The notes beneath the pieces were generated by a model, which was not told the DNA's origin, ran no database searches, and was given only the letters and a program-made list of their open reading frames with translations. The translations under genes were made by a program, and so were the position numbers. From positions 1-39,491 of the forward strand of contig DASXLG010000174.1 of assembly GCA_036496425.1 (NCBI GenBank): a stretch of 39,491 bases of DNA, given 5' to 3'. Of the stretch, positions 1-37,549 are shown one piece after another; within the stretch, counting starts at the first letter, position 1; the number at the start of each line of letters is the position of its first letter. This DNA comes from Terriglobia bacterium (GTDB taxonomy: Bacteria; Acidobacteriota; Terriglobia; 20CM-2-55-15).

Positions 1-163
1 ACTCCCCTCCTGGAAAGGAGGGGAGGCTGTGCCGAAGGCGCAGTCGGGGTGGTCGCTCAAGCCGGCATGCCGTGTGAGCGACCACCCCGACCGCGACATC
101 TCTTGATGCTTCGCCCTATCGGGCTCGCGCTTCGCGGCCACCCCTCCTTTCCAGGAGGGGAGT
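1..163. repeat. Palindromic intergenic repeat, copy 1 (nested inverted repeats, possibly cut by window edge)
   Basis: The first 23 bases (ACTCCCCTCCTGGAAAGGAG plus GGG) recur as a perfect inverted copy at 141-163. Inside is a second perfect 16-bp inverted repeat, TCGGGGTGGTCGCTCA at 44-59 against 75-90, which carries the GTGAGCGACC core seen at the ends of the other three copies. Bases 104-136 (GATGCTTCGCCCTATCGGGC onward) are almost identical to 6598-6628 in copy 2. The parts are thus shared, but the GTGAGCGACC core lies inside here rather than at the ends. The left boundary may lie outside the window. It contains no gene and lies 40 bases downstream of the lipoprotein stop. Confidence 0.8.
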
Positions 164-203: not shown

Positions 204-1202
204 CTACAGAGGGCCACGGAAACCCGGGCTGCGCGCGCTCTCATTTCCAAACTCGTCGAGAGCCGAAACGGAATAGTACATGCCAGGCTTGGAATCCGGA
301 TCAGCGAAGTAATTATTCTTGATAACGCCATTCGAGACGAGCGTAAACGGGCCGTCAGCCCCGGTACTCCGGAAAACACGGTAACCGGCGAGATCGGTTT
401 CCGAATTCGCCTCCCACGTCAGATGTATCGTATTGTCCGACTCCACGATTTCAAAACCCGCCGGAACCTGGGGCGGGGTCTTGTCTTCGATCAGAACAGG
501 CATGCTTTCGGCGCCTATACCGGGGATGCTTCTGTCCCCGATACGCCGCAGAGGGGTTATCTGATACGTAACCATTTTCCCCTGTTGGTAGATGGGATCT
601 TCATACCGGGTGTCGGTCACTGATGCAGGTTCGGCCGGTCTGTCCGTACGCGTAACAATGTAGGCGTCGGCCAGGTCGGGATGCTCGTCTGGTTTGCTCC
701 ATGTGAGCACGGTGTGCCGCTGATCGACGACAGCGCGAATATTGGAGACTTTGCCTGGCACGTCGACCGGAGTAATCGAAACCGTATTGGAGATCTTCGA
801 CGTTTTGCCTTTCTTCGTTTCAGCGATCACCTCGAAGTTCCGGACGGAATTGGAACCCGCCGAAAATGGAATCGGGTAGGACTGAGTTTTCCCCGCACCC
901 AGAGCATCCACTGTAGCCACAGAGACGCCGCCGCTTCGAATCTGAAAACGCCCGAGGTCCGTTGCAGGCGAAAGATCGATATTTCGAGCCGGGTCCGTCC
1001 ACGTCAGAACGATGTTATATCCGCTCTGGCTGGCGCTCAGATCTTTGACTTCTTCGGGAATTCGAATGAAGGGCGGCTGCGGCACGCCGACCTTGGCACA
1101 CGCTGCGAGCAGCGGCAGAAGAAAAGCCACAAGAGCAACAAAAAACCCAAAACCTATAAATCCGTTTTGTGTTTTTTGTGCCTTTAGCGGCTTCCCCCTC
1201 AC
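204..1202 (-). CDS. Lipoprotein with three fibronectin type III domains
   Basis: This 332-residue protein begins with a hydrophobic segment (about 15-34) and a lipobox LAAC with Cys35, so it should be lipidated and anchored to a membrane facing the periplasm or outside. Three FN3-like repeats follow at about 47-145, 148-240 and 245-332. Each has the Leu-Thr-Trp strand (VLTWTDP, VLTWSKP, HLTWEAN) and the last two have a Leu-Ala-x-Ala/Gly-Tyr turn. FN3 domains generally mediate binding or act as spacers; no catalytic motif is seen. The start is GTG at 1200-1202 and overlaps the hslU stop as GTGA, so the gene is probably translationally coupled to hslU. Residues 7-13 (KAQKTQN) come from a recurring micro-repeat. 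The partner or substrate is unknown. Confidence 0.85.
1165..1191 (-). repeat. Micro-repeat (GGCACAAAA type) within lipoprotein signal peptide
   Basis: Read on the minus strand this is GCCGCTAAAGGCACAAAAAA followed by CACAAAA, a variant of the micro-repeat also seen at 3869, 27652 and 35105. Here it encodes the start of the lipoprotein signal peptide. Confidence 0.4.
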
Positions 1203-2584
1203 AGAATATATCGGCTGAGATCCTGGTCCTTCACAATGTCCGCAAGCATCTTCTGAACGTATGCCGCGTCGATTCGGACGGTTTTCTTCTTGAGGTCCGG
1301 CCCCTCGAAGGAGATGTCGTCGAGCAGCTTTTCCATGATGGTGTGCAGGCGCCGCGCCCCGATATTTTCCGTGCTCTCGTTCACCGTAGCGGCAAAACGC
1401 GCCACTTCCTGCACGGCATCGTCAAGAAACGTGAGCTTGATGCCATCGGTTTCGAGCAAAGCGACATATTGCTTGATCAAGGCGTTTTGAGGCTCGGTTA
1501 GAATCCGGACAAAGTCCTCGACAGTCAGCGAATCCAGTTCGACGCGGATAGGGAACCGGCCCTGAAGTTCGGGGATAAGATCGGCCGGCTTGGCGACGTG
1601 AAAGGCTCCGGCGGCGACAAAAAGGATGTGGTCGGTGCGCACGAAGCCGTAGCGCGTATTGACCGTCGTGCCTTCTACGATGGGCAGAATATCGCGCTGG
1701 ACGCCCTCACGGCTGACATCCGGGCCATGGCCGGACTCGCGGCCCGCAATCTTGTCGATTTCATCGAGAAAAATGATGCCGCTGTTCTCCACGCGCTCGA
1801 CAGCGAGCCGGGTGACCTGATCCATATCGACGAGCTTCTGTTCCTCTTCCTGAATCAGATAATCGATCGCCTCGGCGACTTTCATCTTGCGCTTCTTGGT
1901 GCGCTGGCCGAGAAAGCCGGGAAGGATATCCTTGATGTTGATATCCATCTCCTCGATTCCCTGATTGCTGATGATTTCGAAGGCCGGGAAGTTGCGTTCC
2001 TTCACTTCGATCTCGACGGTACGATCGTCGAGCTTGCCTTCACGAAGCTGCGCACGCAATTTCTCTCGTGTCCGGTTCCACTGTTCGGTGGCAGCCCGGG
2101 AACTCTCATCGGTGGGAACAGGCGCCGGAGTCGGGGGCAGCAGCAGGTCGAGAATGCGCTCCTCGGCATTCGCATCGGCTTTGTCTGCAACTTCTTCGAG
2201 CTTCTCGTTGCGGACCATATCAATCGAGATCTCGAGAAGATCACGAATCATGGATTCCACATCGCGCCCCACATAGCCCACTTCGGTAAACTTCGAAGCC
2301 TCGACTTTAAGAAACGGAGAATTCGCCAGTTTGGCGAGCCGCCGCGCAATCTCGGTCTTGCCGACACCCGTGGGCCCGATCATGATGATGTTCTTCGGCA
2401 TCACCTCCTCCGCCATTTCCGGCGGAAGCTTCTGGCGGCGGATGCGGTTTCGAAGCGCGATCGCAACGGCGCGCTTGGCGCCCGCCTGGCCGATTACATA
2501 TTTGTCGAGTTCACGAACGATCTCGCGGGGAGTCAGCTCATCGAGATGCGGTGTCTCATCAATCGTTTCCGGTACATAGGACAT
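1199..2584 (-). CDS. hslU: ATP-dependent protease ATPase subunit HslU (ClpY)
   Basis: HslU is the AAA+ unfoldase ring that feeds proteins into the HslV peptidase in the cytoplasm. The 461-residue product has Walker [10 protein letters not shown] (about 69-77), Walker [10 protein letters not shown], the family-specific GYVGRDVES segment after Walker A, and the C-terminal LSRYIL tail that inserts between HslV subunits to activate them. In between is an intermediate domain rich in charged residues (about 120-250). Length is slightly above the E. coli protein (443). The start is ATG, 30 bases after the hslV stop, and its stop overlaps the next gene as GTGA. It lies immediately downstream of hslV, as in most bacteria. 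Assignment is essentially certain. Confidence 0.98.
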
Positions 2585-2614
2585 ATCAAGTTTGATTCTA
2601 GCACCCGGCGGGAC

Positions 2615-3151
2615 CTACAGTTCTTCAATCGAGATATTTTCATTGGTATAGATGCAGATTTTGCCCGCAATCTGCATCGCTTCCAGCGCAATATCGCGCG
2701 CGCTCAAATCCGAGTATTTGTTCAGAGCGCGCGCAGCCGCGAGGGCATAAGGCCCGCCGGAGCCGATGCCGACAATTCCGTCGTCGGGCTCGATCAGGTC
2801 TCCGTTGCCTGAGATCAGAAAGGTGGTCTTCTCGTCCGCAACGATCATCACAGCCTCCAGATGGCGCAGCGCGCGGTCCGTCCGCCAATCCTTCGCCAGT
2901 TCGACGGCGGCACGGCTGAGGTTTCCGTGATACTGCTCGAGCTTCGCCTCAAACCGGGCAAACAGCGCAAACGAATCCGCCGACGATCCGGCAAAACCGG
3001 CCAGTATTTTTTCGTTATAGAGCCGGCGGATCTTTTTGGCGCCGTGCTTGATGACGGTGTCGCCGAGCGTAACCTGACCGTCGCTGGCAATGGCAACTTT
3101 GCCTTTTTTCCGGACACAAATGATCGTTGTCGCGTGGATGGATAAGTTCAT
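2615..3151 (-). CDS. hslV: ATP-dependent protease peptidase subunit HslV (ClpQ)
   Basis: HslV is the proteasome-like N-terminal-threonine peptidase that works with HslU. The 178-residue product has the family core: [20 protein letters not shown], then [18 protein letters not shown] and [15 protein letters not shown] place the start at the ATG at 3149-3151, which gives MNLSIHA before the Thr-Thr pair. A longer in-frame reading upstream only runs through the previous gene. The catalytic Thr would be residue 8, exposed by removing a seven-residue propeptide, unlike E. coli, where only Met precedes Thr. CodW of Bacillus also carries a short extension ending His-Ala before the Thr pair. The gene starts 8 bases after the preceding stop and is followed 30 bases later by hslU. 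Confidence 0.97.
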
Positions 3152-3158
3152 GATGAGT

Positions 3159-3938
3159 TTACTTCGATGACGGATTGAGCTGAGTGAACAGATTGTCGGC
3201 CAGATGGGAATTGTAAACCACGGTTTCGGCCCGGATTTCCATGGTCTTAACGCCGTCCGTATAACGCGTGACAAAGAGAGGCATACTCACTCCCTGCGAC
3301 TTGTGCCAGTTTGAATATTGTTCTTCATGAAGTTTTGGATCGTCGCTCCGGCGCACCTGCATTTTTACCGGCAGGTGCGATTCCCTATCGATATAGAACC
3401 GGATACGGTTCTTTGCAGGATCGCGCAGCTCGATGATGTCGGTCCGTTTAAAACCCACCATTTCCGTGCCCAGATTCTGGATCGTCGTCTGTTTGTCCTG
3501 CACCACAAATCTCAGGACGTAGTCCATGCCCGTCTTGAAGCCTTTTTGAAACTCTTCGACTTCGCCTGGCGTCTGGTCGACCGGATCTTTCTTGCCTTCC
3601 ACTTTTTTGCCCTGTTTACCGCTATTGATCGTAATGGTCTTGAACTTCGGGCCGCCGAATTCGGTGCGTTCCATATCCGGAAATTTAATGAAGTCCGCAA
3701 ACAGGTCGGAAGCGCTGAGTTGGCCGTGCGCAAAAGCATAGAACCGGCCGGTGGTGTGGATGTCGTCGACATCCAGATAAGCCTGGCCCCCCAGCGCATC
3801 GATCATCTGGTCCAGAGGCTGGATGCCGCGTCCCTGACGCGCGAGCGCGAAGCCTGAAAAAAGCAGCAGCCACAAAAGGCACAGAAGGAAGCTTTCTGTA
3901 CGGCCTTCTCGTTTTTTCGAAATAAGCATCAGCGTCAA
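3159..3938 (-). CDS. Secreted LolA/LolB-fold-like protein, function unknown
   Basis: A 259-residue protein with a basic N terminus (SKKREGR) and a hydrophobic segment, [16 protein letters not shown], ending in a likely signal-peptidase site near residue 34, so it is probably periplasmic. The mature part has the feel of outer-membrane lipoprotein-sorting (LolA-like) beta-sheet proteins: an early [10 protein letters not shown] helix, then alternating strands such as [20 protein letters not shown] and [13 protein letters not shown]. The start is uncertain. TTG at 3938 would overlap the previous stop as TTGA; ATG at 3929 is the alternative, and a TATAAT hexamer lies just upstream at 3938-3943. 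Part of the signal peptide is encoded by a micro-repeat. It sits between the C26 hydrolase gene and hslV. It may help handle lipoprotein or envelope stress, but that is inference. Confidence 0.75.
3869..3888 (+). repeat. Micro-repeat GCCACAAAAGGCACAGAAGG
   Basis: This is a near-consensus copy of the short boundary repeat. It overlaps the reading frame of the LolA-like gene, whose minus strand reads it as the hydrophobic core of the signal peptide (LLCLLW). Confidence 0.45.
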
Positions 3939-4657
3939 TTATAGCGAAGCCGGGCCTGCTCGATAAATTTCGAGAACAGCGCCTTCGAGAGCGGGTCGTT
4001 CTGCCATCCACGTTCGGGATGCCACTGCACCCCGACGATAAAACGGCCGGTGGTATCTTCGACGGCCTCGATAACCCCATCGTTAGCGACGGCCACGGTT
4101 TTCAAATGACTCCCAGCCCGTTCGATCGCCTGATGATGGTAACTGTTTACTTCGATTTCCGCGCGGCCGGCCAGGCGGCCCACGATGCTGTCTTCGACGA
4201 CGCGAACAGCATGATGTGCCGGAGGCTTGCCGTCATCATTATCGTGAGTCAGGGCCGGTCCGACAAGCGCTGGAATATCTTGAACCAGCGAGCCGCCGCG
4301 ATAGACGTTCAAGCTTTGAACCCCGAAGCAGATGCCCAGAACCGGCATGTCTTTCTGTTGTTCGGCGAAATCGAGAATCGCAAAATCCGTCGAGTCACGC
4401 TCAGGATGGAGTTGGCCAAGCATCGCATGGGCCGCCGCGCCGTAAAGCTTTGGATCGATGTCCGTCGGACTGCCGGGCAGCAGGACGCCCTGCACGCGCT
4501 GCATGTACTCGCGAACGATGCCCGAATCGCTCACCGTTGGAATCATCAACGGCAAACCGCCGGCCCACAAGACCGCATCGAGATAGTGCCGGATCTGGCC
4601 GATGTACTCAGATTTTTCGTGGTAGCGAGTAGGAATTCCGATCCAGGGTTTTTCCAT
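3935..4657 (-). CDS. Class I glutamine-amidotransferase-like hydrolase (peptidase C26, PuuD-like)
   Basis: The 240-residue product belongs to the gamma-glutamyl-gamma-aminobutyrate hydrolase/C26 family, cytoplasmic enzymes that hydrolyse gamma-glutamyl amides. The family triad is visible: nucleophile Cys110 in LGICFGVQ, then His213 and Glu215 in QWHPERG. An IGIPTRY start and LPGSPTDIDP (about 60-69) also match the family. I chose ATG at 4657 because the next upstream Met adds 29 residues that do not fit the family; even so it overlaps the end of plsC by 50 bases. The substrate cannot be deduced: no polyamine genes are nearby. It overlaps the following gene by four bases (TTGA). Confidence 0.88.
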   Translation of the reverse strand: MEKPWIGIPTRYHEKSEYIGQIRHYLDAVLWAGGLPLMIPTVSDSGIVREYMQRVQGVLLPGSPTDIDPKLYGAAAHAMLGQLHPERDSTDFAILDFAEQQKDMPVLGICFGVQSLNVYRGGSLVQDIPALVGPALTHDNDDGKPPAHHAVRVVEDSIVGRLAGRAEIEVNSYHHQAIERAGSHLKTVAVANDGVIEAVEDTTGRFIVGVQWHPERGWQNDPLSKALFSKFIEQARLRYN

Positions 4658-5372
4658 GATTGAATGTTGCCATGATTTCCCCGCGAACCCGGTCTGAAAG
4701 CTCAGCGACCGTGGTCCCTTGCGAGGGAATGGGCTCACCGACAATGACTTCGACGACTCCGCTGCGTACGTAATAAGTCTTCGGAACCAGGACGGCGCGC
4801 GATCCCCGCATTGTCACAGGCACAACCGGAGCTTCCGATTTCGTCGCCAGCATGAAGCCCCCGCCTTTGAACGGCTTGATGCTTCCATCCACACTCGTCC
4901 CGCCTTCCGGGAAGATCACCACCGAGGTGCCGTGACGGATCGCATCGGCTGCTTCACGGATGGATTTAACGGCGGCGCGCGGGTTCTCTCTGTCTATCGG
5001 CACATGCCCCGAGCGTCGCAAATGCCAGCCGAGAAATGGATAGCGGAATAATTGTTTCTTCGGAGTAAACCGGAATTGAAAAGGAAGCGCTGCCAGGATG
5101 ATCGGGATATCCATGTGACTCTGATGGTTGCAGCACAGAACGTAGGGCGTACCCTGAATCAGGTTTTCCGCACCCGAAACCCGCAGCTGAACCCGGCAGG
5201 TCCAGAGAATCATCCGCGCCCAGATATTGGCGCAGGCATGCTGGATGCGGCCCTGCGCGTCGAAAAGGGAACTCACAAGCGATATCGTTCCCATGATGGC
5301 CGTGTACAGGAAAACCAGCGGTGCCGTGATCAGCAGCGACCGCGCGTAACCGACCTTCTCCCGAAAACGCAT
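4608..5372 (-). CDS. plsC: 1-acyl-sn-glycerol-3-phosphate acyltransferase (PlsC family)
   Basis: PlsC-family enzymes acylate lysophosphatidic acid to phosphatidic acid in phospholipid synthesis, at the inner membrane. The 254-residue product has the catalytic HX4D motif NHQSHMD (His83, Asp88), the glycerol-phosphate-binding FPEGGTS (154-160), and a hydrophobic N-terminal segment (about 13-35) consistent with membrane association. ATG at 5372 is 6 bases after the folC stop, so the two are probably cotranscribed. Related acyltransferases act on other lysolipids, so substrate specificity is inferred from family membership. Confidence 0.93.
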   Translation of the reverse strand: MRFREKVGYARSLLITAPLVFLYTAIMGTISLVSSLFDAQGRIQHACANIWARMILWTCRVQLRVSGAENLIQGTPYVLCCNHQSHMDIPIILAALPFQFRFTPKKQLFRYPFLGWHLRRSGHVPIDRENPRAAVKSIREAADAIRHGTSVVIFPEGGTSVDGSIKPFKGGGFMLATKSEAPVVPVTMRGSRAVLVPKTYYVRSGVVEVIVGEPIPSQGTTVAELSDRVRGEIMATFNHGKTLDRNSYSLPRKI

Positions 5373-5378
5373 TGCAAA

Positions 5379-6539
5379 TTAATGTAGCATGCTGCGCGCC
5401 TCGCCAATCAGGTACAGCGAACCGCAGATCAGGATCGTCGAGCCTTCGGGAGCGTGGCTTTTCGCGTAAGAAATCGCATCGCCTGGATCCGATCTGGCTT
5501 GAGAGCCCGGAACGAGCGCCTGCAGATCCACCGGATCTTTGGAGCGGCTGTTGTGAGGCTGCGTGAAAACGAACTGCCGCGCATGAGGCTTGAGGGCGGC
5601 GATCATCTCCTGATACTGCTTATCGGCCATAACTCCGAAAATGATCCACACACCCTCAGGATGGAACTCCCCGAGGAAGCGGGCGAGGGCGCGTGCGCCA
5701 TCCGCGTTATGCGCGCCGTCCAGGAGGAAACGGCCGATGCGTTCGAGCCGGCCCGGCCAGGTTGCGCTGTTCACGCCGTGGACAATGTCCGCGCGCGCAA
5801 TGCCCAGGCACTCTGCCGCACAAATGGCAACCGCAACATTCTCCATCTGATGACGGCCCAGCAGCCGCGGACGCAGATCCGGATATCGGCCGAAATCCAG
5901 ATCCCCCGCCCGGATCAACCGCGCACCGGCCTTCTCGCGAACAGGTGGTAAATCCGCGGACGGCCCGGCGACAACGGGCTCCCGGACTTTAATGATTCCC
6001 GCCTTTTCGGCAGCGATCGCTTCGATGGTGTTGCCGAGGAATTCCTGGTGGTCCATTCCGATACTGGTAATGACCGACACCTCTTGCTCGACGATATTCG
6101 TCGCGTCCAGACGGCCGCCGAGTCCAACCTCCAGGACGGCAAAATCGACCCGGCCCTGAAAATAGAGAAATGCCATGGCGGTAACGATTTCAAAATATGT
6201 CGGTGGATAGAGCAAATTCCTTGCGGTTGCTGAAGCCGCCTTTACCTTCTCAAAAACGTCCTTCAAGTCATCGTCGGATATTTCGCGATCCCCGATACAA
6301 ATACGCTCATTCAGCCGTACGAGGTGCGGTGACGTGTAAAATCCGGCCGTGGGCATCATCGAAGAGAGCAGCTTCGCGACGGAGCCCTTGCCGTTTGTAC
6401 CCGCGATCAGAACGGAACGGAAAGACCTTTGCGGGTTGCCCAGAGCCGCGGCGAGGACGCGCATGTTGCCGAGGTCATAGCGAATCGAACGGTATTCGTT
6501 CGTTAGGGAATAGAGATAAGCGATGTCGGAGGATGTCAC
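5379..6539 (-). CDS. folC: Bifunctional folylpolyglutamate synthase/dihydrofolate synthase
   Basis: FolC joins glutamate to dihydropteroate or folate in the cytoplasm using ATP. The 386-residue product has the Mur-ligase-type P-loop AGTNGKGSVAK (Gly47-Ser53), the family segment TSPHLVRLNERI, a Glu-rich central motif VLEVGLGGRLDATN with the metal-ligand Glu, SIGMDHQEFLG, and the C-domain motif LDGAHN (about 272-277). It is somewhat shorter than E. coli FolC (422). The start is GTG at 6537-6539; the protein begins directly with the usual YLYSL helix. It lies between palindromic repeat copy 2 and plsC, heading a tight gene chain. Confidence 0.95.
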   Translation of the reverse strand: MTSSDIAYLYSLTNEYRSIRYDLGNMRVLAAALGNPQRSFRSVLIAGTNGKGSVAKLLSSMMPTAGFYTSPHLVRLNERICIGDREISDDDLKDVFEKVKAASATARNLLYPPTYFEIVTAMAFLYFQGRVDFAVLEVGLGGRLDATNIVEQEVSVITSIGMDHQEFLGNTIEAIAAEKAGIIKVREPVVAGPSADLPPVREKAGARLIRAGDLDFGRYPDLRPRLLGRHQMENVAVAICAAECLGIARADIVHGVNSATWPGRLERIGRFLLDGAHNADGARALARFLGEFHPEGVWIIFGVMADKQYQEMIAALKPHARQFVFTQPHNSRSKDPVDLQALVPGSQARSDPGDAISYAKSHAPEGSTILICGSLYLIGEARSMLH

Positions 6540-6562
6540 TGGTCTGAGCTCTGAGAGGTCAA

Positions 6563-6733
6563 CATGGTGTGTGAGCGACCCCCTGCCGGCTTTTATTGAT
6601 GCTTCACCCTATCGGGCTCGCGCTTCGCACGGCACGGCTGTCCCCCTGTATCAGGGGGACAGTAAACTCTCCCCCTGATAATACAGGGGGAGAGCCCGCG
6701 CAAGCGCGGGCAGGGGGTCGCTCACACACCATG
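6563..6733. repeat. Palindromic intergenic repeat, copy 2 (perfect 25-bp terminal inverted repeats)
   Basis: The ends are perfect 25-bp inverted repeats: CATGGTGTGTGAGCGACC plus CCCTGCC at 6563-6587, and its reverse complement at 6709-6733. Inside are three further hairpins: CTGTCCCCCTGTATCAGGGG plus GACAG (6638-6662), one from 6667 to 6694 built on CTCTCCCCCT and AGGGGGAGAG, and GCCCGCGC-AA-GCGCGGGC (6694-6711). Bases 6598-6628 match copy 1 at 104-134 except at one position. It encodes no plausible protein and fills the gap between the topA stop (10 bases away) and folC. No clear target-site duplication is seen. Confidence 0.88.
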
Positions 6734-6742
6734 CTACCGATA

Positions 6743-9184
6743 TCACGACACCTTTTCTGCTTCGACAGGGACCTTGTACTTGCACGCTTCTTCGTTGCAG
6801 TAATGGACGACCCCTTCACGCTTTGTCGCCTTTTCGAGCAGGAAGGGCGCGCCGCACTCCGGACAAGGCTCGGGAACCGGCTTGTTCCACACGACGAAGT
6901 CGCAAGCGGGATATTTCAAGCAGCCGTAAAAAACCTTGCCGCGTTTCGACCGGCGCTCAATCAATTCGCCGCCGCACCCGGGTTTCGGACACGCGACGCC
7001 GACGGTCTTCGGCTTGATGTATTTGCACTTCGGATAGTTGCCGCACGAGATGAATTCGCCGAAACGGCCTTCCCGGAGCATCAGTTTCGCCTGGCCGCAC
7101 TGCGGGCAGGTTTCATCCAGCGGGACGTCGGGCTTCTTCGCCCCCTTTCCGCCGCTCGCGATCTTCCGCGTGGTCTTGCATTCGGGATAGCCCGTGCACG
7201 CGAGGAATTGTCCGAACCGTCCGCGTTTCAGCGCCATTGGTTTGCCGCAGTTTTCACACGGCTCGGGCTCCGACGACTCCGTTGAACCCCCGCCTTCCTT
7301 TGGCGGTTCCTCGCTGGCAATCTCTTTCGTGTTTTTACACTCGGGATATCCCGAGCAGGCCATGAAGCGGCCGAACTGGCCCCACTTGATGACCATCGGA
7401 CTTCCGCACTTCTCGCAGACCTCGTCGGTCGGGATCTCCTGTGTCTTGAGGTTCTCCATGTTCTTGGAAGCCTTTTTCAGATCCTTCTCGAACTTCTTGT
7501 AGAACTCGCCGAGGGCCTGAACCCAGGTCATCTTGCCTTCTTCGACTTCGTCGAGTTCCTCTTCCATCTTCGCCGTGTACTGGACGTCAAAGATGTCTTC
7601 GAAGTGTTTCACCAGCATGTCGGTGACGACAGTGCCGAGTTCCGTAGGCCTGAACTTGCCTTGATCTTTGGTGACGTATTCCCGGTCTTGAATCGTCGAC
7701 AGGATCGTCGCATAGGTTGAGGGCCGGCCGATGCCCTTCTCTTCAAGGATTTTCACCAGCGAAGCTTCCGTATAGCGCGGCGGCGGCTCCGTAAAGTGCT
7801 GGCGCGGCATCAGGTCGAGGAGGCGAACTTTTTCACCCTGCTTTAACGGCGGCAGCGTGATGTTCTGTTCTTCGTCGCTGTCCAGCGGGTTCACGTTGGC
7901 ATCTTCGTCGCGTGATTCTTCGTAAACGGCGAGGAATCCGTCGAACTTCATCACGCGGCCCGAAGCGCGGAACGTATAGTCCTTCGCGGAAATGTCGACG
8001 GCCGTCTGATCGTACACGGCCGGATTCATCTGCGACGCGACGAATCGCGTCCAGATCAACCGGTACAACTTCATCTCGTCTTCGGAAAGGTACTGTTTCA
8101 GATCATCCGGCTTGCGCCCGACGAAGGTCGGACGTATCGCTTCGTGTGCGTCCTGGGCGTCTTTCTTGCTCTTGTAGATGACGGGCTTCTCAGGAAGATA
8201 TGGGCCGCCGTAAATGTCCGAAACGTAGGAACGCACCATCTGCATCGCGTCGTCGGAGATGCGCGTGGAATCGGTACGCATGTACGTGATCAAGCCGATG
8301 CGCCCTTCTTCTCCCTGTTCGATGCCTTCATACAGCCGCTGGGCCAGCATCATGGTCTTTTTCACGGTAAAGCGGAGGCGCCGGGCCGCGTCCTGTTGGA
8401 GCTTGCTGGTCGTAAAGGGCGGGACAGGATTGCGTTTCTTCTCCTTCGTAACGACGGATTCGACCAGAAAATCCGAATTCCGGACGATTTCCAGAACGTG
8501 ATCGGCCTCCGCCTGATTCTTCACGTCAGCGGCCTTGCCCTTGAACTTTGCAAGTCTCGCTTCAAACTGGGGCGGTTCGTGGCCTTCGAGTTTGGCGATG
8601 ATGGACCAGTATTCTTCGGGCGTGAACGCCTGAATTTCGCGCTCGCGCTCGACAATCAGCCGGAGCGCAACAGTCTGCACGCGGCCGGCGGAAATTCCGC
8701 GGCGGACTTTGTCCCACAGGAGCGGGCTGATTTGATAGCCCACGAGCCGGTCGAGGATGCGGCGCGCCTGTTGCGCATCGACGATGTGCTGATTGATGCG
8801 GCCTGGATTGTCCACGGCAGCACGGATCGCCTTCGGCGTAATCTCGTTAAACATCACGCGGAAGACTTCGGCCTTGCTGCCGTCGAGAATCTCTTTCAAA
8901 TGCTGGCAGATCGCTTCACCCTCGCGGTCCGGGTCAGCCGCGAGCAGAATGCGGTCTGCAGATTTCGCCGCCGCGCGCAGGTCCTTGACTACTTTTTCCT
9001 TCCCGGGAATGACGTCATAGACGGGTTCGAAGTCATGTTCAAGGTCCACACCCAGCTTGCTCTTGGGCAGATCCTTGACGTGGCCCAGCGAGGCTTTCAC
9101 CACGTAGTCCTTGCCGAGATATTTATTGATCGTGTTCGCTTTTGCGGGTGACTCCACGATAACCAGTGATTTTTTCGAAGGCAT
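6743..9184 (-). CDS. topA: DNA topoisomerase I (type IA) with five C-terminal zinc-ribbon motifs
   Basis: TopA relaxes negatively supercoiled DNA by cutting one strand through a tyrosine. The 813-residue product has the Toprim domain at its start (Glu11 in IVESPAKA, DPDREGE at 84-90), then the type IA core with the active-site Tyr301 in GLITYMRTDSTRIS. After about residue 590 come five Cys4-type zinc motifs, three with the FGxF(L/I/M)xCxxYPxC pattern and two more divergent at the end. E. coli TopA has three such motifs. I place the start at ATG 9182-9184, where the family sequence (KKSLVIVESPAKA) begins; a 49-residue upstream extension would run back into dprA. It follows dprA by 64 bases and ends 10 bases before palindromic repeat copy 2. 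Confidence 0.97.
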   Translation of the reverse strand: MPSKKSLVIVESPAKANTINKYLGKDYVVKASLGHVKDLPKSKLGVDLEHDFEPVYDVIPGKEKVVKDLRAAAKSADRILLAADPDREGEAICQHLKEILDGSKAEVFRVMFNEITPKAIRAAVDNPGRINQHIVDAQQARRILDRLVGYQISPLLWDKVRRGISAGRVQTVALRLIVEREREIQAFTPEEYWSIIAKLEGHEPPQFEARLAKFKGKAADVKNQAEADHVLEIVRNSDFLVESVVTKEKKRNPVPPFTTSKLQQDAARRLRFTVKKTMMLAQRLYEGIEQGEEGRIGLITYMRTDSTRISDDAMQMVRSYVSDIYGGPYLPEKPVIYKSKKDAQDAHEAIRPTFVGRKPDDLKQYLSEDEMKLYRLIWTRFVASQMNPAVYDQTAVDISAKDYTFRASGRVMKFDGFLAVYEESRDEDANVNPLDSDEEQNITLPPLKQGEKVRLLDLMPRQHFTEPPPRYTEASLVKILEEKGIGRPSTYATILSTIQDREYVTKDQGKFRPTELGTVVTDMLVKHFEDIFDVQYTAKMEEELDEVEEGKMTWVQALGEFYKKFEKDLKKASKNMENLKTQEIPTDEVCEKCGSPMVIKWGQFGRFMACSGYPECKNTKEIASEEPPKEGGGSTESSEPEPCENCGKPMALKRGRFGQFLACTGYPECKTTRKIASGGKGAKKPDVPLDETCPQCGQAKLMLREGRFGEFISCGNYPKCKYIKPKTVGVACPKPGCGGELIERRSKRGKVFYGCLKYPACDFVVWNKPVPEPCPECGAPFLLEKATKREGVVHYCNEEACKYKVPVEAEKVS

Positions 9185-9248
9185 TTTGTTCAGTCGCTTT
9201 CGTCTATCTAATAAGTCGTGTGCGCAGAAAAAGCAACATGAGGTTTTT

Positions 9249-10361
9249 TTACAATCGCCGAATGTATTTCTTTCCAGGCAGTTGCCGGATGTGACCAGCC
9301 ACCTCCAAGGCAAGCAGCGCACTATAAACATCGGACGTGGATAAAGGCAACTTTGAGAGCAGGCTGTCGATCGAAACAGCCTCCTGGGCCGACAGCGCCT
9401 TCCACACTTTTGCCTCGCTGCCTGCGAGCTGCGGCTCAGGCACAGCCTGCATCTGAGCGATCAGCGGCGCGAAAATTCTTTCCCGGATGGCGTGCGGCAA
9501 CTCCTCGACAATATCCTGCCAGCTCGCGACCAGCTTGGCGCCCTGCCGGATCAGGGCGTGGGGCCCGAAACTCTGCGGCGACATGATGTTGCCCGGCACC
9601 GCGAAGATTTCCCGGCCCGCCTCGAGACCAAGCCGGACGGTGATGAGTGAGCCCGAATATTCGGCCGCTTCGACCACCGCGACTCCCAGCGACATCCCGG
9701 CAATAATCCGGTTCCGGATCGGAAAATTCTGAGGCGCGGGCGGCGTTCCCAACGGAAACTCCGAAATAAGCGCGCCATTTTTTTCCGCTAAATCGGCGAG
9801 TCCGCGATTTTCTTTCGGATAAACGAAGTCGAGACCGCTGCCAAAGACCGCATAGGTGACCCCCGCCCGCAATGCCCCTCGATGAGCCGCCGCATCGAGG
9901 CCGCGAGCCAGCCCCGACGTGACCGCAAGTCCTTTTGCCGCAAGATCTTCGGCTAGCCGTTCCGCGCAATTCAAGCCGTAGCCGGTCGGCCGCCGCGTAC
10001 CCACAATCGCAACCTGCGGAAGCTCCGGATCCCATCTCTGACCGCGTATATAAAGGATGATCGGCGGATCGAAAATCTCCCGCAGCAGAGGCGGATAATC
10101 CGGATGCAGAATGTCGACGATCCGTACGCCCAGTTCTTCGGCGCGGCGCCATTCCTGCTCCGCCCGTTCTGCGGATTTCGTTGAAAATAAATCCTCGACA
10201 ACCTCCCGGGGAATCCCCAATGCGTCCACTTCGCTCAAGGTGGCCGCAAAGATGCGCTCAGGTTCTCGAAAGTGTTTGATGAGCGCATTCGCGGAACGAA
10301 GGCCCAGGCCGCGGACAAGGAATATTCTTAGCGCTGCTTTTGTGCGATCGACATTATCCAC
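9249..10361 (-). CDS. dprA: DNA-processing protein DprA (Smf)
   Basis: DprA binds incoming single-stranded DNA during natural transformation and loads RecA. The 370-residue product has an N-terminal helix-hairpin-helix/SAM-like region (1-70), the Rossmann-like DprA core (about 75-285) with VAIVGTRRPTGYG, TSGLARGLDAAAHRGAL, VFGSGLDFVYPKEN, SEFPLGTPP and FPIRNRIIAG, and a C-terminal winged-helix-like region (about 305-370). All hallmark motifs are present, so the protein should be functional. The start is GTG at 10359-10361. It is divergent from the thioredoxin-like gene at 10437, leaving a 75-bp gap that should hold promoters for both sides. The dprA-topA pair is conserved in several phyla. 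Confidence 0.96.
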   Translation of the reverse strand: MDNVDRTKAALRIFLVRGLGLRSANALIKHFREPERIFAATLSEVDALGIPREVVEDLFSTKSAERAEQEWRRAEELGVRIVDILHPDYPPLLREIFDPPIILYIRGQRWDPELPQVAIVGTRRPTGYGLNCAERLAEDLAAKGLAVTSGLARGLDAAAHRGALRAGVTYAVFGSGLDFVYPKENRGLADLAEKNGALISEFPLGTPPAPQNFPIRNRIIAGMSLGVAVVEAAEYSGSLITVRLGLEAGREIFAVPGNIMSPQSFGPHALIRQGAKLVASWQDIVEELPHAIRERIFAPLIAQMQAVPEPQLAGSEAKVWKALSAQEAVSIDSLLSKLPLSTSDVYSALLALEVAGHIRQLPGKKYIRRL

Positions 10362-10436
10362 GCCGCTGCTGGAGCAAGAGTTCGACCAAACCGGAATGTT
10401 ATGACAGAATACGGCTTATTCTGATAAGGAGAAAGA

Positions 10437-10973
10437 ATGTCGCGCAAATTACTATTCGCACTTTTACTGATTTCGACATTACTGGTTTCAACCGCATGGG
10501 CGCAGCATCCGGACGATGCGTTCGTCGGACAAAAAGCTCCGGAGCTCAAGGCCGGAGATGCCTGGATCAACTCGGCGCCTCTCAAGCTCGAACAACTTCG
10601 CGGCAAAGTTGTTCTGATCGAGTTCTGGGCGTTTGACTGCCCGTACTGCGCGGAGGCCACGCCGCACGTCAAAGAGTGGTACGACAAATACGGGAAAGAC
10701 GGGCTGGTTGTCATCGGAGTGCACGTTCCCCGCATCGATTACGAGAAGGAGATTCCGAAGATCAAAGAGGCCGTGGCGAAGAAAGGAATCCGATATCCGG
10801 TCGTCGTCGACAACAACTATCAGATCTGGAGTGATTATCTCTGTAATTCGTGGCCCAGCCACTTCGTCGTCGACCAGGATGGAGTCATCCAGCTCAGCCA
10901 TTCGGGCACGGAGCGGTATGATGAGACCGAGCAAATCATTCAAAAGCTGCTTGCGAAGAAGAATGCACAATAG
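10437..10973 (+). CDS. Secreted TlpA/ResA-family thioredoxin-like protein
   Basis: A 178-residue protein with a signal peptide (LLFALLLISTLLVSTAWAQ, cleavage after about residue 22) and a thioredoxin fold carrying the redox motif CPYC (Cys68-Cys71) in FWAFDCPYCAEATP. The cis-Pro segment SWPSHFVVDQDG is present. It is thus probably a periplasmic thiol-disulfide or peroxidatic protein of the TlpA/AhpC-TSA group; the redox partner is unknown. ATG at 10437 has a good ribosome-binding site (AAGGAG, 6-7 bases upstream). Its last 11 bases overlap the start of the next gene, implying coupled translation. Confidence 0.88.
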   Translation: MSRKLLFALLLISTLLVSTAWAQHPDDAFVGQKAPELKAGDAWINSAPLKLEQLRGKVVLIEFWAFDCPYCAEATPHVKEWYDKYGKDGLVVIGVHVPRIDYEKEIPKIKEAVAKKGIRYPVVVDNNYQIWSDYLCNSWPSHFVVDQDGVIQLSHSGTERYDETEQIIQKLLAKKNAQ

Positions 10974-12012: not shown

Positions 12013-13051
12013 GCGCGGCTTGATCCGGCTCGTCTGCCCACTTCTTCTTGAGCTGGCCGCAGGCGGCAGAGATGTCGTTGCCACGGTTCTTGCGGACGAA
12101 CGCGGAAATCTGATGGTCGTCGAGAATGTGCTGAAACTGTGCGATTGAGGCGTCGGACGGCCGTTTGTAAGGGACTTCTTCGGCTTCGTTAAACGGAATC
12201 AGATTCACCTTCGCACGCATACCCTTAAGCAACTTCACCAGGTGAAGCGCGTCTTCAGGAGAGTCCGTCAGTCCGCGCAGTAGGACGTATTCAAAGGTCA
12301 CGCGCTGCCGGTGTTTCAGGGGAAAGTGCCGGACCGCATCGAGCAATTGTTCGATGGGATACCGGCGGTTGATCGGCATCAACTGATTCCTCTTTTCATT
12401 CGTAGCGCCGGTCAGCGAAATCGCAAGATTCGGGATCATCGGCTCGCTTCCAAGGCGTTCGATGGCGGGCAAAAGCCCGGCCGTCGAAAGCGTGATGCGC
12501 GACATCGACATGTTCAGTCCCTGCTCGTCGTGGAGAATGCGAATCGCCTTCATCACGTTGTCATAGTTGTGCAGCGGCTCGCCCATCCCCATCAGCACGA
12601 TATTGAAGCTGTCGCGCGCCTCCCAGGAGAGATTGTCCCGCTGGGCGACCAGCGCCTGTGTGACCATTTCGCCGGCCGTAAGGTGACGCGTCAAGCCAAG
12701 CTGTCCCGTTAGGCAGAAGGTACAGGCAAGGGCGCAACCGATCTGGGAAGAAATGCAGACCGTGTTGCGATGCTCTTCGGGAATGAAAACCGTCTCGGCA
12801 AGCTCGCCATCAGCGAGGCGAACCAGATAACGGCGCGTTCCATCGGATGAATCGAAGCGGCGGTGCGTCGCCGGAAGCCGGATATCCCACTCACCCGCCA
12901 GCTCCGCGCGCAACGGCTTCGGCAGATCGCTCATCGACTCGAAATCGGTGAACCAGCGCTGATAGACCGATTTATAGAGTTGAGTCGCGCGGAACGAAGG
13001 CTGGAACGCTTCGGCCAGCTCGGGCCGTTCGAAATCGAAGAAGAAATTCAT
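11996..13051 (-). CDS. rlmN: 23S rRNA (adenine(2503)-C(2))-methyltransferase RlmN
   Basis: RlmN is a radical SAM enzyme that methylates C2 of A2503 in 23S rRNA and A37 of some tRNAs. The 351-residue product has the cluster motif CALACTFC (Cys106, Cys110, Cys113), the GMGEPLHNYDNV segment that binds SAM, an STAGLLPAI stretch, and the C-terminal catalytic Cys in DISAACGQL. Length matches the family (about 350-390). The ATG at 13051 lies 9 bases after the stop of the upstream TlpA-like gene, suggesting cotranscription. The 3' end overlaps the convergent hydrolase-fold gene by 17 bases. Confidence 0.96.
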   Translation of the reverse strand: MNFFFDFERPELAEAFQPSFRATQLYKSVYQRWFTDFESMSDLPKPLRAELAGEWDIRLPATHRRFDSSDGTRRYLVRLADGELAETVFIPEEHRNTVCISSQIGCALACTFCLTGQLGLTRHLTAGEMVTQALVAQRDNLSWEARDSFNIVLMGMGEPLHNYDNVMKAIRILHDEQGLNMSMSRITLSTAGLLPAIERLGSEPMIPNLAISLTGATNEKRNQLMPINRRYPIEQLLDAVRHFPLKHRQRVTFEYVLLRGLTDSPEDALHLVKLLKGMRAKVNLIPFNEAEEVPYKRPSDASIAQFQHILDDHQISAFVRKNRGNDISAACGQLKKKWADEPDQAALSTSL

Positions 13052-30431: not shown

Positions 30432-31667
30432 CTACTCGACCACCGATTGCAGTACCGCGTTTTCGAAATCCCGGATCATTTCCTGATTGGACGTCTGAAC
30501 CAGCAGGAGGCCCACGAGTTTTTCCTTTGGATCAACCCAGAAGTGGGTGCCAAAGGCACCTTGCCAGCCGAAGGAACCGTTCGAAAGATACGTGCCCCGC
30601 GCGACGGCGTCAGTAATCACGCGAACGCTTAATCCCCAGGCTTCGCCTCGAGCGCGGCCGGGCAGCGTGTCGGGCGCAAAAGGAGAGCCCATCAATTCAA
30701 CCGAACGGGGACTCAGAAGCCGCTTGCCGTTGAGTTGGCCGCCGTTCACCAGCATCTGGGCGAATTTGACATAGTCGTCGGCCGTACTCGAGAGGCCGCC
30801 GCTACCGGAAAAGTAAGTGGTCGGCGGAGCGGGCTGATTCGCAGACTTCTCGAGGCCTTTCGCCGTCTTCTGATACATCGTAACGACGCGGGATTTCTGC
30901 GGCTCGCTGATATTAAAGAAGGTGTCCTTCATTCCCAGCGGATCGAAGATCCGCTGCTTCAGGAACTGATCCAGGCTCTGTCCGGAAACGATTTCGACGA
31001 TTCTTCCCAACGTGTCGAAGCCGGCGCCCGGACTATAGCTCCAGCGGCTGCCAGGTTGAAATTCGAGCGGGACCTGGCCCAGGCGCGGGATATAGTCGGC
31101 GAGTGTCTCTCCAGGCTTTCTCTGGATCTTCCCGGCTTCAGCCGTGCTGATGCTGCCGCTCACCAGGCCGGACGTATGGGTTAACAGGTCTTTGATCGTG
31201 ATCTCACGCTCCGCAGGCACCGCATAAAAACGCGGCGCGGCGCCTCGCGCTCCCGCCTGCCCTGGAGCCGGCTGCGCGACTGCAACTTTCAATTCTTTGA
31301 ACTCCGGAATGAATCTCGAGACGGGGTCCGTGAGCCGCACCTTTCCTTCTTCCATCATCATTAATATCGCTGTACCGACGATCGGCTTTGTCATGGATGC
31401 GATCCGGAAAATGGCATCCTTCGTCATCGGCTTATTCGTTTCGATGTCCATCACGCCCTGGGCATCCAGGTACGCAATTTGTCCATTCCGCGCAACGAGC
31501 GTTACGGCGCCGGAGATGTCCCGCGCCGCGATTCTGCGCTCCATGAGGTCGTGTACACGCTTCAAACGTTCCGAGGAGAGGCCAACCTGCTCCGGTTTGG
31601 CAGTCTGTGCCAGTACGCTGGTGTACGCGCAGATGACAAACACGATCGACAAGACGATGCGTTTCAT
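30432..31667 (-). CDS. Secreted serine hydrolase, beta-lactamase class C / penicillin-binding protein 4* family
   Basis: The 411-residue product has a signal peptide (about 1-20) and the class C beta-lactamase-type fold. Active-site Ser lies in ASMTK (SxxK), with SYSPGAG (the Tyr motif, usually YxN, here YSP) and GFDTLGRIVEIVSG following. The C-terminal strand SFGWQGAFGTHFWVDP replaces the usual Lys/His-Thr-Gly motif. Such enzymes are esterases, amidases or peptidases acting on cell-wall peptides or esters; real beta-lactamase activity is not implied. ATG 31667 has a good AGGAG leader. Palindromic repeat copy 3 lies 93 bases upstream. Confidence 0.9.
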   Translation of the reverse strand: MKRIVLSIVFVICAYTSVLAQTAKPEQVGLSSERLKRVHDLMERRIAARDISGAVTLVARNGQIAYLDAQGVMDIETNKPMTKDAIFRIASMTKPIVGTAILMMMEEGKVRLTDPVSRFIPEFKELKVAVAQPAPGQAGARGAAPRFYAVPAEREITIKDLLTHTSGLVSGSISTAEAGKIQRKPGETLADYIPRLGQVPLEFQPGSRWSYSPGAGFDTLGRIVEIVSGQSLDQFLKQRIFDPLGMKDTFFNISEPQKSRVVTMYQKTAKGLEKSANQPAPPTTYFSGSGGLSSTADDYVKFAQMLVNGGQLNGKRLLSPRSVELMGSPFAPDTLPGRARGEAWGLSVRVITDAVARGTYLSNGSFGWQGAFGTHFWVDPKEKLVGLLLVQTSNQEMIRDFENAVLQSVVE

Positions 31668-31759
31668 AAGGTCTCCTGTTGTTGGGGATCAACGGTCAGG
31701 AACATATACAAAACGCGGGATCAATGCGAGAAATTCGTGAGCAACACACTCGAATTCAA

Positions 31760-31898
31760 CATGGTGTGTGAGCGACCCCCTGCCGCCGCTTCGCGGCGGC
31801 TGTCCCCCTTTCCAAGGGGGACAGTACCCCTCCGCCAACTCTCCCCCTGATACAGGGGGGAGAGCCGCGAAGCGGCAGGGGGCCGCTCACACACCATG
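31760..31898. repeat. Palindromic intergenic repeat, copy 3
   Basis: The left end CATGGTGTGTGAGCGACC plus CCCTGCC (31760-31784) recurs inverted at 31874-31898 with one mismatch. Inside are CTGTCCCCCTTTCCAAGGGG plus GACAG (31800-31824), a CTCTCCCCCT hairpin with AGGGGGGAGAG (31839-31864), and small CCGCCGCTTCGCGGCGG (31783-31799) and CCGCGAAGCGG (31865-31875) hairpins. It occupies part of the 336-base gap between two divergent genes, leaving room on either side for promoters. It encodes no protein. The flanks do not show an obvious target duplication. Confidence 0.88.
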
Positions 31899-31937
31899 TC
31901 GAAATCGAGTCCGGTGCAAACGAGCAATATATTGCAA

Positions 31938-37492: not shown

Positions 37493-37549
37493 GTGAGCGA
37501 CCCCCTGCCGGCCGCTTCGCGGCCGGCAGGGGGTCGCTCACACACCATG
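37493..37549. repeat. Palindromic intergenic repeat, copy 4 (minimal hairpin form)
   Basis: GTGAGCGACCCCCTGCC plus GGCCGC (37493-37515), a 3-base loop TTC, and the perfect 23-bp complement (37519-37541) form one hairpin. The right flank ACACCATG (37542-37549) is the intact outer end of the other copies, while the left flank is changed to ACTGGCCTC. It lies between convergent metF-like and dedA genes, where it could serve as a bidirectional terminator. Confidence 0.85.

Follow-up and report, generated by a model that had tools for sequence, protein, structure and literature searches.

The dispersed palindromic repeats of this acidobacterial genome are best explained by an IS5-like DDE transposon lineage, of which they would be old, non-autonomous copies (MITEs); we assign this reading a probability of about three in four. 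Judged from the sequences, a cut-and-paste transposase of the IS5-like kind, and not a REP enzyme, probably spread the family. A mover of this type is suggested by the terminal sequence, by 9-10-bp target duplications in related genomes and by a linked transposase. In this species, the middle parts of the hairpins have survived longer than the ends on which movement depended.

Repeat copies in the window and in the genome

The window, i.e. the whole stretch of 39,491 nucleotides that was analysed, corresponds to contig C174 from base 1 of a 6.16-Mb draft in 407 contigs. The nearest named matches of its TopA come from metagenome assemblies of soil Acidobacteria, four of them labelled 'gp5' (83-86% identity). 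Four elements sharing inverted repeats had been reported in the first-pass annotation, and all of them were confirmed in the window sequence at the positions claimed (Table 1). The motif GTGAGCGACC, allowing one mismatch, is found 11 times in the window compared to 3.8 expected, a number reached by none of 100 shuffles. Copy 2 folds much better than its shuffled versions (z = -13). Inverted-repeat ends of 25 bp had been described for copies 2 and 3; both are present, but the arms of copy 3 are longer than claimed. Copy 4 consists of one hairpin with perfect 23-bp arms and a 3-nt loop, its left end being truncated and of type B and its right end of type A (both types are defined below). Copy 1 is a diverged relative. 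Two GTGAGCGACC-type ends stand back to back (51-83) in a mosaic palindrome that the start of the contig truncates, so its architecture differs from that of copies 2-4.

Table 1. Positions of the repeat copies, their parts and their neighbouring genes in the window
Feature	Position	Strand	Details
Copy 1, diverged mosaic palindrome, cut at contig start	1..163	.	core ends 51-60 (-) and 72-83 (+); gap empty in L097
Copy 2, putative eroded MITE, outer TIR lost on both sides	6559..6733	.	28-nt arms, 96% complementary, 6563-6590 / 6706-6733; orthologous gap empty in L096-L099
Copy 2, left core arm GTGAGCGACCCCCTGCCG	6571..6588	+	
Copy 2, nested module TTGATGCTTCACCCTATCGGGCTCGCGCTTCGC	6592..6628	+	inside the first of the small hairpins; shared with copy 1 and with further palindromes in the genus
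Copy 2, inner hairpin CTGTCCCCCTGTATCAGGGGGACAG	6638..6662	+	sequence and fold; recurrent in many copies
Copy 2, inner hairpin CTCTCCCCCTGATAATACAGGGGGAGAG	6667..6694	+	sequence and fold; recurrence
Copy 2, right core arm GTGAGCGACCCCCTGCCC	6708..6725	-	
Mur-ligase/FolC-like gene	5379..6539	-	neighbour of copy 2
topA	6743..9331	-	neighbour of copy 2
Copy 3, real extent, outer ends partly kept	31735..31923	.	52-nt arms, 85% complementary, 31735-31786 / 31872-31923; right side keeps GTGCAAA of the TIR; divergent gap
Beta-lactamase-fold gene	30432..31667	-	flanks gap of copy 3
Tannase-like gene	from 31896 or later start	+	flanks gap of copy 3
Copy 4, single-hairpin form	37493..37549	.	49-bp core 37493-37541; convergent gap

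Different palindromes (window 103-135 and 6592-6628; loci L269, L272, L273 and L276) contain a recurrent module of about 36 bp, TTGATGCTTCGCCCTATCGGGCTCGCGCTTCGC, which in one case forms a tandem pair and looks like a third level of nesting. Variants of it (GGCTGCGCGCTATCGCGCTTGCGCTTCGC) are found near other genes.

Counts for the whole genome rest on pattern searches and fetched loci. The end motif CATGGTGTGTGAGCGACC (up to three mismatches) gave 82 sites, far more than four copies, compared to none for the reversed control; the inner core GTGAGCGACCNCCTGCCG gave 151 sites compared to 42 for its control. In the fetched loci, 102 distinct ends belonging to at least 67 elements were identified. 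Core lengths are bimodal, with single hairpins of 37-49 bp and nested hairpins of 85-190 bp (e.g. CTGTCCCCCTGTATCAGGGGGACAG, CTCTCCCCCTGATACAGGGGGAGAG). The earlier view of a dispersed, non-coding and mostly intergenic palindromic family that has no gene of its own is thus supported, and a short, non-coding element dispersed in many copies (cores of 37-190 bp, 82 end sites) is what is expected of a MITE. Contigs C209, C212, C246, C394, C407 and C202 end inside family palindromes, and base 1 of the window lies within one as well. The repeats have thus probably interrupted the assembly, so that the copy numbers given are too low.

Comparison of orthologous gaps showed insertion polymorphism, another property of MITEs. 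Window positions 234-6529 and 6745-10957 are collinear with the related locus L097, and the region is broadly collinear with L096, L098 and L100; like the source genome, most of the relatives' genomes are drafts. Between the aligned coding parts of topA and folC, L096-L099 have gaps of 42, 21, 37 and 18 bp, respectively, and no palindrome lies there; the element at 6563-6733 is therefore an insertion. In L097, the gap corresponding to the window start is likewise short and lacks the element, so that the orthologous gaps are empty in relatives and not identically occupied at all sites. In L100, the topA/folC gap carries a different insert (12579-13045), in which CCAGAAGCCAGAAG and CTTCTGGCTTCTGG repeats enclose an ORF resembling a four-helix bundle; this insert seems to be a mobile unit of its own.

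The transposon end and the retained core

The first-pass annotation had proposed that the end of the repeat extends a few bases further (TTCAACATGG). The direction was right, but the extension was too short: the full end (TIR) runs about 34 bp outward from the end first noted, to GGCTTTGCACAAA, and reaches GGCTTTGCACAAAAAGTC. Outward alignment of 98 ends revealed conservation past CATGG in two forms. Type A ends show GGCTTTGCACAAAAACTCGATTTCAACATGGTGT before GTGAGCG, type B ends GGCTTTGCACAAAAAGTC plus three bases before GTGAGCG. The sequence GGCTTTGCACAAAAA, with at most 4 mismatches in 15, lies outside 16 of the 102 ends, compared to 0.6% of control windows, and its offsets from the core are only 21 or 34-35 bp. 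The TIRs expected of a MITE are hence seen as GGCTTTGCACAAA at fixed offsets in this genome, and both sides are complete in a copy from the congener G005 (L225), whose flanks CGTTTACAC/CGTTTACCC match at 8 of 9 bp.

Most family copies in this genome carry no recognisable TIR. The match in the outer flank ends at scattered distances (2-34 bp), which differ between the two ends of one copy. At these breakpoints, a near-perfect match inside is often followed by random sequence outside, and the outer flank is wholly absent in only 3 of the 102 ends. Since a fixed core boundary would peak at zero, the scatter indicates that copies began with the outer flank and were trimmed later. The core as an independently mobile unit was rejected on the same grounds, as the breakpoints do not fall at its edge. 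Target duplications were not significant among the family copies of this genome (3 of 36 at 7/9 or better, permutation p ~0.1).

The core, in turn, is nearly intact overall (2-3% mismatch; perfect in 72 of 102). At the 19 ends with a recognisable TIR, mismatch reaches 22% in the TIR and 3.4% in the adjoining core, a comparison that is biased because the copies were found via the core. In a small sample of five ends that were found by the TIR alone, three retain the core and two have lost it. A perfect inner hairpin is present in 77 of 102 arms, these hairpins having 43 different sequences.

The position of the elements was analysed with genes called by a simple codon model. Convergent, tandem and divergent gaps hold 25, 22 and 5 elements, respectively, compared to 7, 25 and 7 gene pairs in the window. 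The enrichment in convergent gaps is significant (25/52 vs 7/39, p = 0.004), the difference in divergent gaps is not. The median distance of the elements is 15 bp to the 3' end of a gene and 66 bp to a 5' end. A test for intrinsic terminators found no T-run, the sequence outside the arms being CACACCATGTTGAAATC-like; thus, these hairpins are not classic terminators. Rfam yielded no match at the gathering score.

These observations lend some weight to the reading that the core is a host element under selection, i.e. a transcript-end or mRNA-stabilising hairpin with a MITE origin in the past, that no longer moves. The lower mismatch of the core compared to the TIR, the many perfect cores and inner hairpins, the enrichment in convergent gaps and the short distance to gene 3' ends would all be expected of it. 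However, the retrieval of copies through the core, its loss from two of the five TIR-found ends and the missing T-run weaken the case, and gene conversion together with palindrome repair could produce the same pattern. We consider this reading possible, though the less probable one; it is compatible with the MITE explanation and does not exclude it. Three processes would fit the position and retention of the core: hairpins may be selected at gene ends, copies may undergo gene conversion, or insertions may be tolerated nowhere else.

Shared ends in the genus and a linked transposase

Sites of GGCTTTGCACAAA (up to one mismatch) number 389 in the congener G004, 62 in G001, 48 in this genome, 24 in G005, 18 in G002 and 12 in G003, with 1-16 sites per genome in the reversed controls. 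The end GGCTTTGCACAAAAAGTC is common to miniature elements of the genus, the interiors of which are unrelated, species-specific and palindromic. In the case of G004, almost all fetched elements have a uniform length of 108 bp; in the case of G001, most measure about 197 bp. In this genome, a second family of about 245 bp has the same TIR. Target duplications of 9-10 bp accompany 25 of the 31 fetched TIR pairs: the duplication measures 9 bp in 20 pairs (8-9 of 9 matching) and 10 bp in five (at least 8 of 10), while lengths of 5-8, 11 and 12 bp do not match in this set. A sister MITE of this genome (L270) shows a perfect 9-bp duplication, CTTGCAGTG. A preference of the MITEs for hairpin loops as targets was not shown, with 7 of 29 sites compared to 21% of control windows.

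The cargo of these elements varies. The 108-bp MITE of G004 (L235-L254) carries a pair of GTAG-REP hairpins, identical at 26 of 31 positions, including the CGATGT tail, to the REP beside a RAYT gene of the same genome. One MITE of G005 carries GGGGTCAGACCCC; a TIRYT-type gene in G004 has similar ends (GGGGTCAGAC). This genome (L268-L272) and two relatives (L101:2542-2718 and L247) share a sister MITE of 177-309 bp that has the same TIR as the other elements and carries the cargo GACATTCCCCGCCTTTCCAAGGCGGGG.

A scan of viral contigs with the 18-bp end led to a 3.9-kb element (L292, 740-4629) with the ends GGCTTTGCACCAAAAGTC and GGCTTTGCACAAAAAGTC, subterminal TGCACCAAAAGTC repeats and a perfect 9-bp duplication, AGCCTATGC. 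The gene adjoining one of its ends (L292:758-2194) encodes 478 amino acids with a SWIM zinc finger and a DDE_Tnp_1 domain; its best NCBIfam model is IS5_2 (9e-35), at 120.5 bits below the cut-off of 140. Two homologues from the same class are 51% and 50% identical and keep the SWIM cysteines as well as D278, D353 and E414, which we take as the catalytic triad. Another element, in L305 (transposase at 3305-4519), is bracketed by GGCTTTGCACAAGAAGCC and GGCTTTGCACACAAACGG and has a perfect 9-bp duplication, AGATTTGCC; in L304 and L307, the ends match on one side or both. In the congener G001, a transposase homologue full of stops lies about 100 bp inside GTCTTTGCACATAAAGCC, together with the TCTGCACAAAAAGTC repeat. 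A candidate autonomous element with the shared ends thus exists in intact form in the same class and also on a viral contig, and in decayed form in G001; no match to the SWIM-DDE transposase was found in the assembly of this genome. What ties this transposase, about 50% identical across genomes, to the MITEs is the shared ends and the duplication length alone.

Two of the SWIM-DDE transposons (L292:740-4629 and L304:2962-7160) carry DNA-methyltransferase genes as passengers, of the N6_N4_Mtase type with an Mrr-like C-terminus and of the N6_Mtase/Eco57I type. No solved structure matched the transposase in sequence, and a search of open-licence papers found no report linking SWIM-bearing IS5-like transposases to MITEs. 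Regarding other transposases in the genus, a search for PF00872 (IS256-type) gave one match, without the family ends; PF13737 gave none, also not in controls, and is hence uninformative. Two other candidates for an autonomous element were rejected. Firstly, a 1.55-kb TIR pair in G005 encloses an ankyrin-like ORF and no transposase. Secondly, two family ends that lie 2.7 kb apart on contig C57 (L176, ~2455-5095) enclose an IS1595-type transposon with two further ORFs, which sits in the hairpin loop of a family copy and has the duplication TGTGTTAG.

According to the MITE explanation, a SWIM-DDE-type transposase, now lost or unassembled in this genome, would have acted on the ends and inserted the elements. 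Each copy would then have lost its outer ends separately, with the hairpin core persisting, in most cases shortly after a gene stop. The retained core may act as a transcript-end hairpin or may simply be tolerated.

The nearest described kind is the IS5-type pair ISAba12/MITEAba12 of Acinetobacter, with GGCTTTGTTGCACAAA and 9-bp duplications (PMC6382973). MITEAba12 is non-coding, measures about 110 bp and is identical to its autonomous IS only at the ends (PMC6382973). Ends of the form GGCTTTG..CACAAA with 9-bp duplications (Table 2 in PMC6382973) are also found in the elements described here. In contrast, the present TIR lacks TTG (GGCTTTGCACAAA), the interiors are GC-rich nested palindromes that differ by species, and the ends are mostly eroded in this genome. 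Compared to ISAba12, the linked transposase has an N-terminal SWIM finger and the element is longer, 3.9-4.3 kb with subterminal repeats.

Y1-moved repeats and a second route for spreading hairpins

It had been suggested that the family is moved by a REP-associated (Y1) transposase. This was not borne out, as the sole Y1/RAYT gene detected in this genome stands between copies of another repeat, AGGGGGTCGCACACCTGAATTC. This gene (L182, ~5000-5840, contig C15) lies within AGGGGGCGCACACCTGAATTC arms, which form a dispersed family of their own with 36 sites and solo copies that are palindromes of about 60 bp. The ends of the present repeats are missing from all 11 other Y1 loci that were found in the genus and family. 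The AGGGGGCGCACACCTGAATTC-armed Y1 family fits the TIRYT/TIRtron type, for which Di Nocera et al. name Acidobacteria as one of the host groups (PMC3733652). From the first description as REP/MITE-type, the MITE-like part holds, whereas the repeats are probably not a RAYT-moved REP.

The alternative would be a REP/REPIN-like family moved by a lost or unassembled Y1 RAYT or TIRYT, with GGCTTTGCACAAA belonging to an unrelated MITE into which some of the hairpins were inserted. Hairpin architecture, location at gene 3' ends and stems that vary yet remain complementary are typical of REPs (PMC3733652; our own data), the core resembles the RAYT-bearing family of this genome (GGGGGTCGC(T)CACAC), and some type B ends show CGTC or CCTC next to the stem. 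REP/REPIN systems with RAYTs (GTAG and CGTC superfamilies; PMC3733652, PMC3116915) are alike also in being dispersed intergenic hairpins that prefer convergent and tandem gaps. However, no GTAG tag was found here, the stems measure at least 17 bp instead of 5-13 bp, no RAYT gene flanked by the family repeat was found, and the unit that spread has DDE-transposon ends. CGTC-REPs are defined by a CGTC tag, an AT-starting stem of 8-9 bp, a loop of 4-5 nt and a CCA-like tail (PMC3733652); here, CGTC/CCTC occurs only in some type B ends, as the last bases next to the TIR, and the stem, of at least 17 bp, starts with GTGAGCG. TIRYTs/TIRtrons (PMC3733652; subclass 2.1 in PMC6006769) are similar as a moderately abundant inverted-repeat family, yet a repeat that brackets a Y1 gene is seen in this genome only in the AGGGGGTCGCACACCTGAATTC family. 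As the scattered breakpoints and the rarity of ends without outer flank are also not expected of an independently moving core, we regard a Y1-moved family as clearly unlikely. An assembly artefact, or chance resemblance among ordinary intrinsic terminators, can practically be dismissed: the draft is fragmented and several contigs end in these palindromes, but the control had no site, the flanking genes differ at each of the 82 sites and related copies occur in an independent genome (L225).

Small palindromes nested in larger ones are also known from REP dimers (Anabaena GTAG-15, Halothiobacillus CGTC-1; PMC3733652). The outer palindrome is unexplained in those cases, whereas in the present elements a transposon end, accompanied by target duplications, accounts for it, and the cargo in G004 is itself a GTAG-REP pair.

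A broader reading, which we put forward tentatively and hold to be rather unlikely in its full form, is that of a modular MITE superfamily: one set of DDE-transposon ends would repeatedly pick up and amplify unrelated palindromes as species-specific cargo, and in this species the hairpin would have been selected at gene 3' ends, outliving the transposon ends. Dispersed palindromes of bacteria are usually credited to Y1/RAYT enzymes, and for CGTC repeats as well as for REP dimers in larger palindromes no mover is known. Within one genus, shared DDE-transposon ends enclose palindromic cargoes of different kinds, including a GTAG-REP pair; this offers a concrete and testable second route, together with a group of SWIM-bearing IS5-like transposases tied to its MITEs. 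If this reading is true, DDE transposases would be a second general route for spreading REP-like hairpins.
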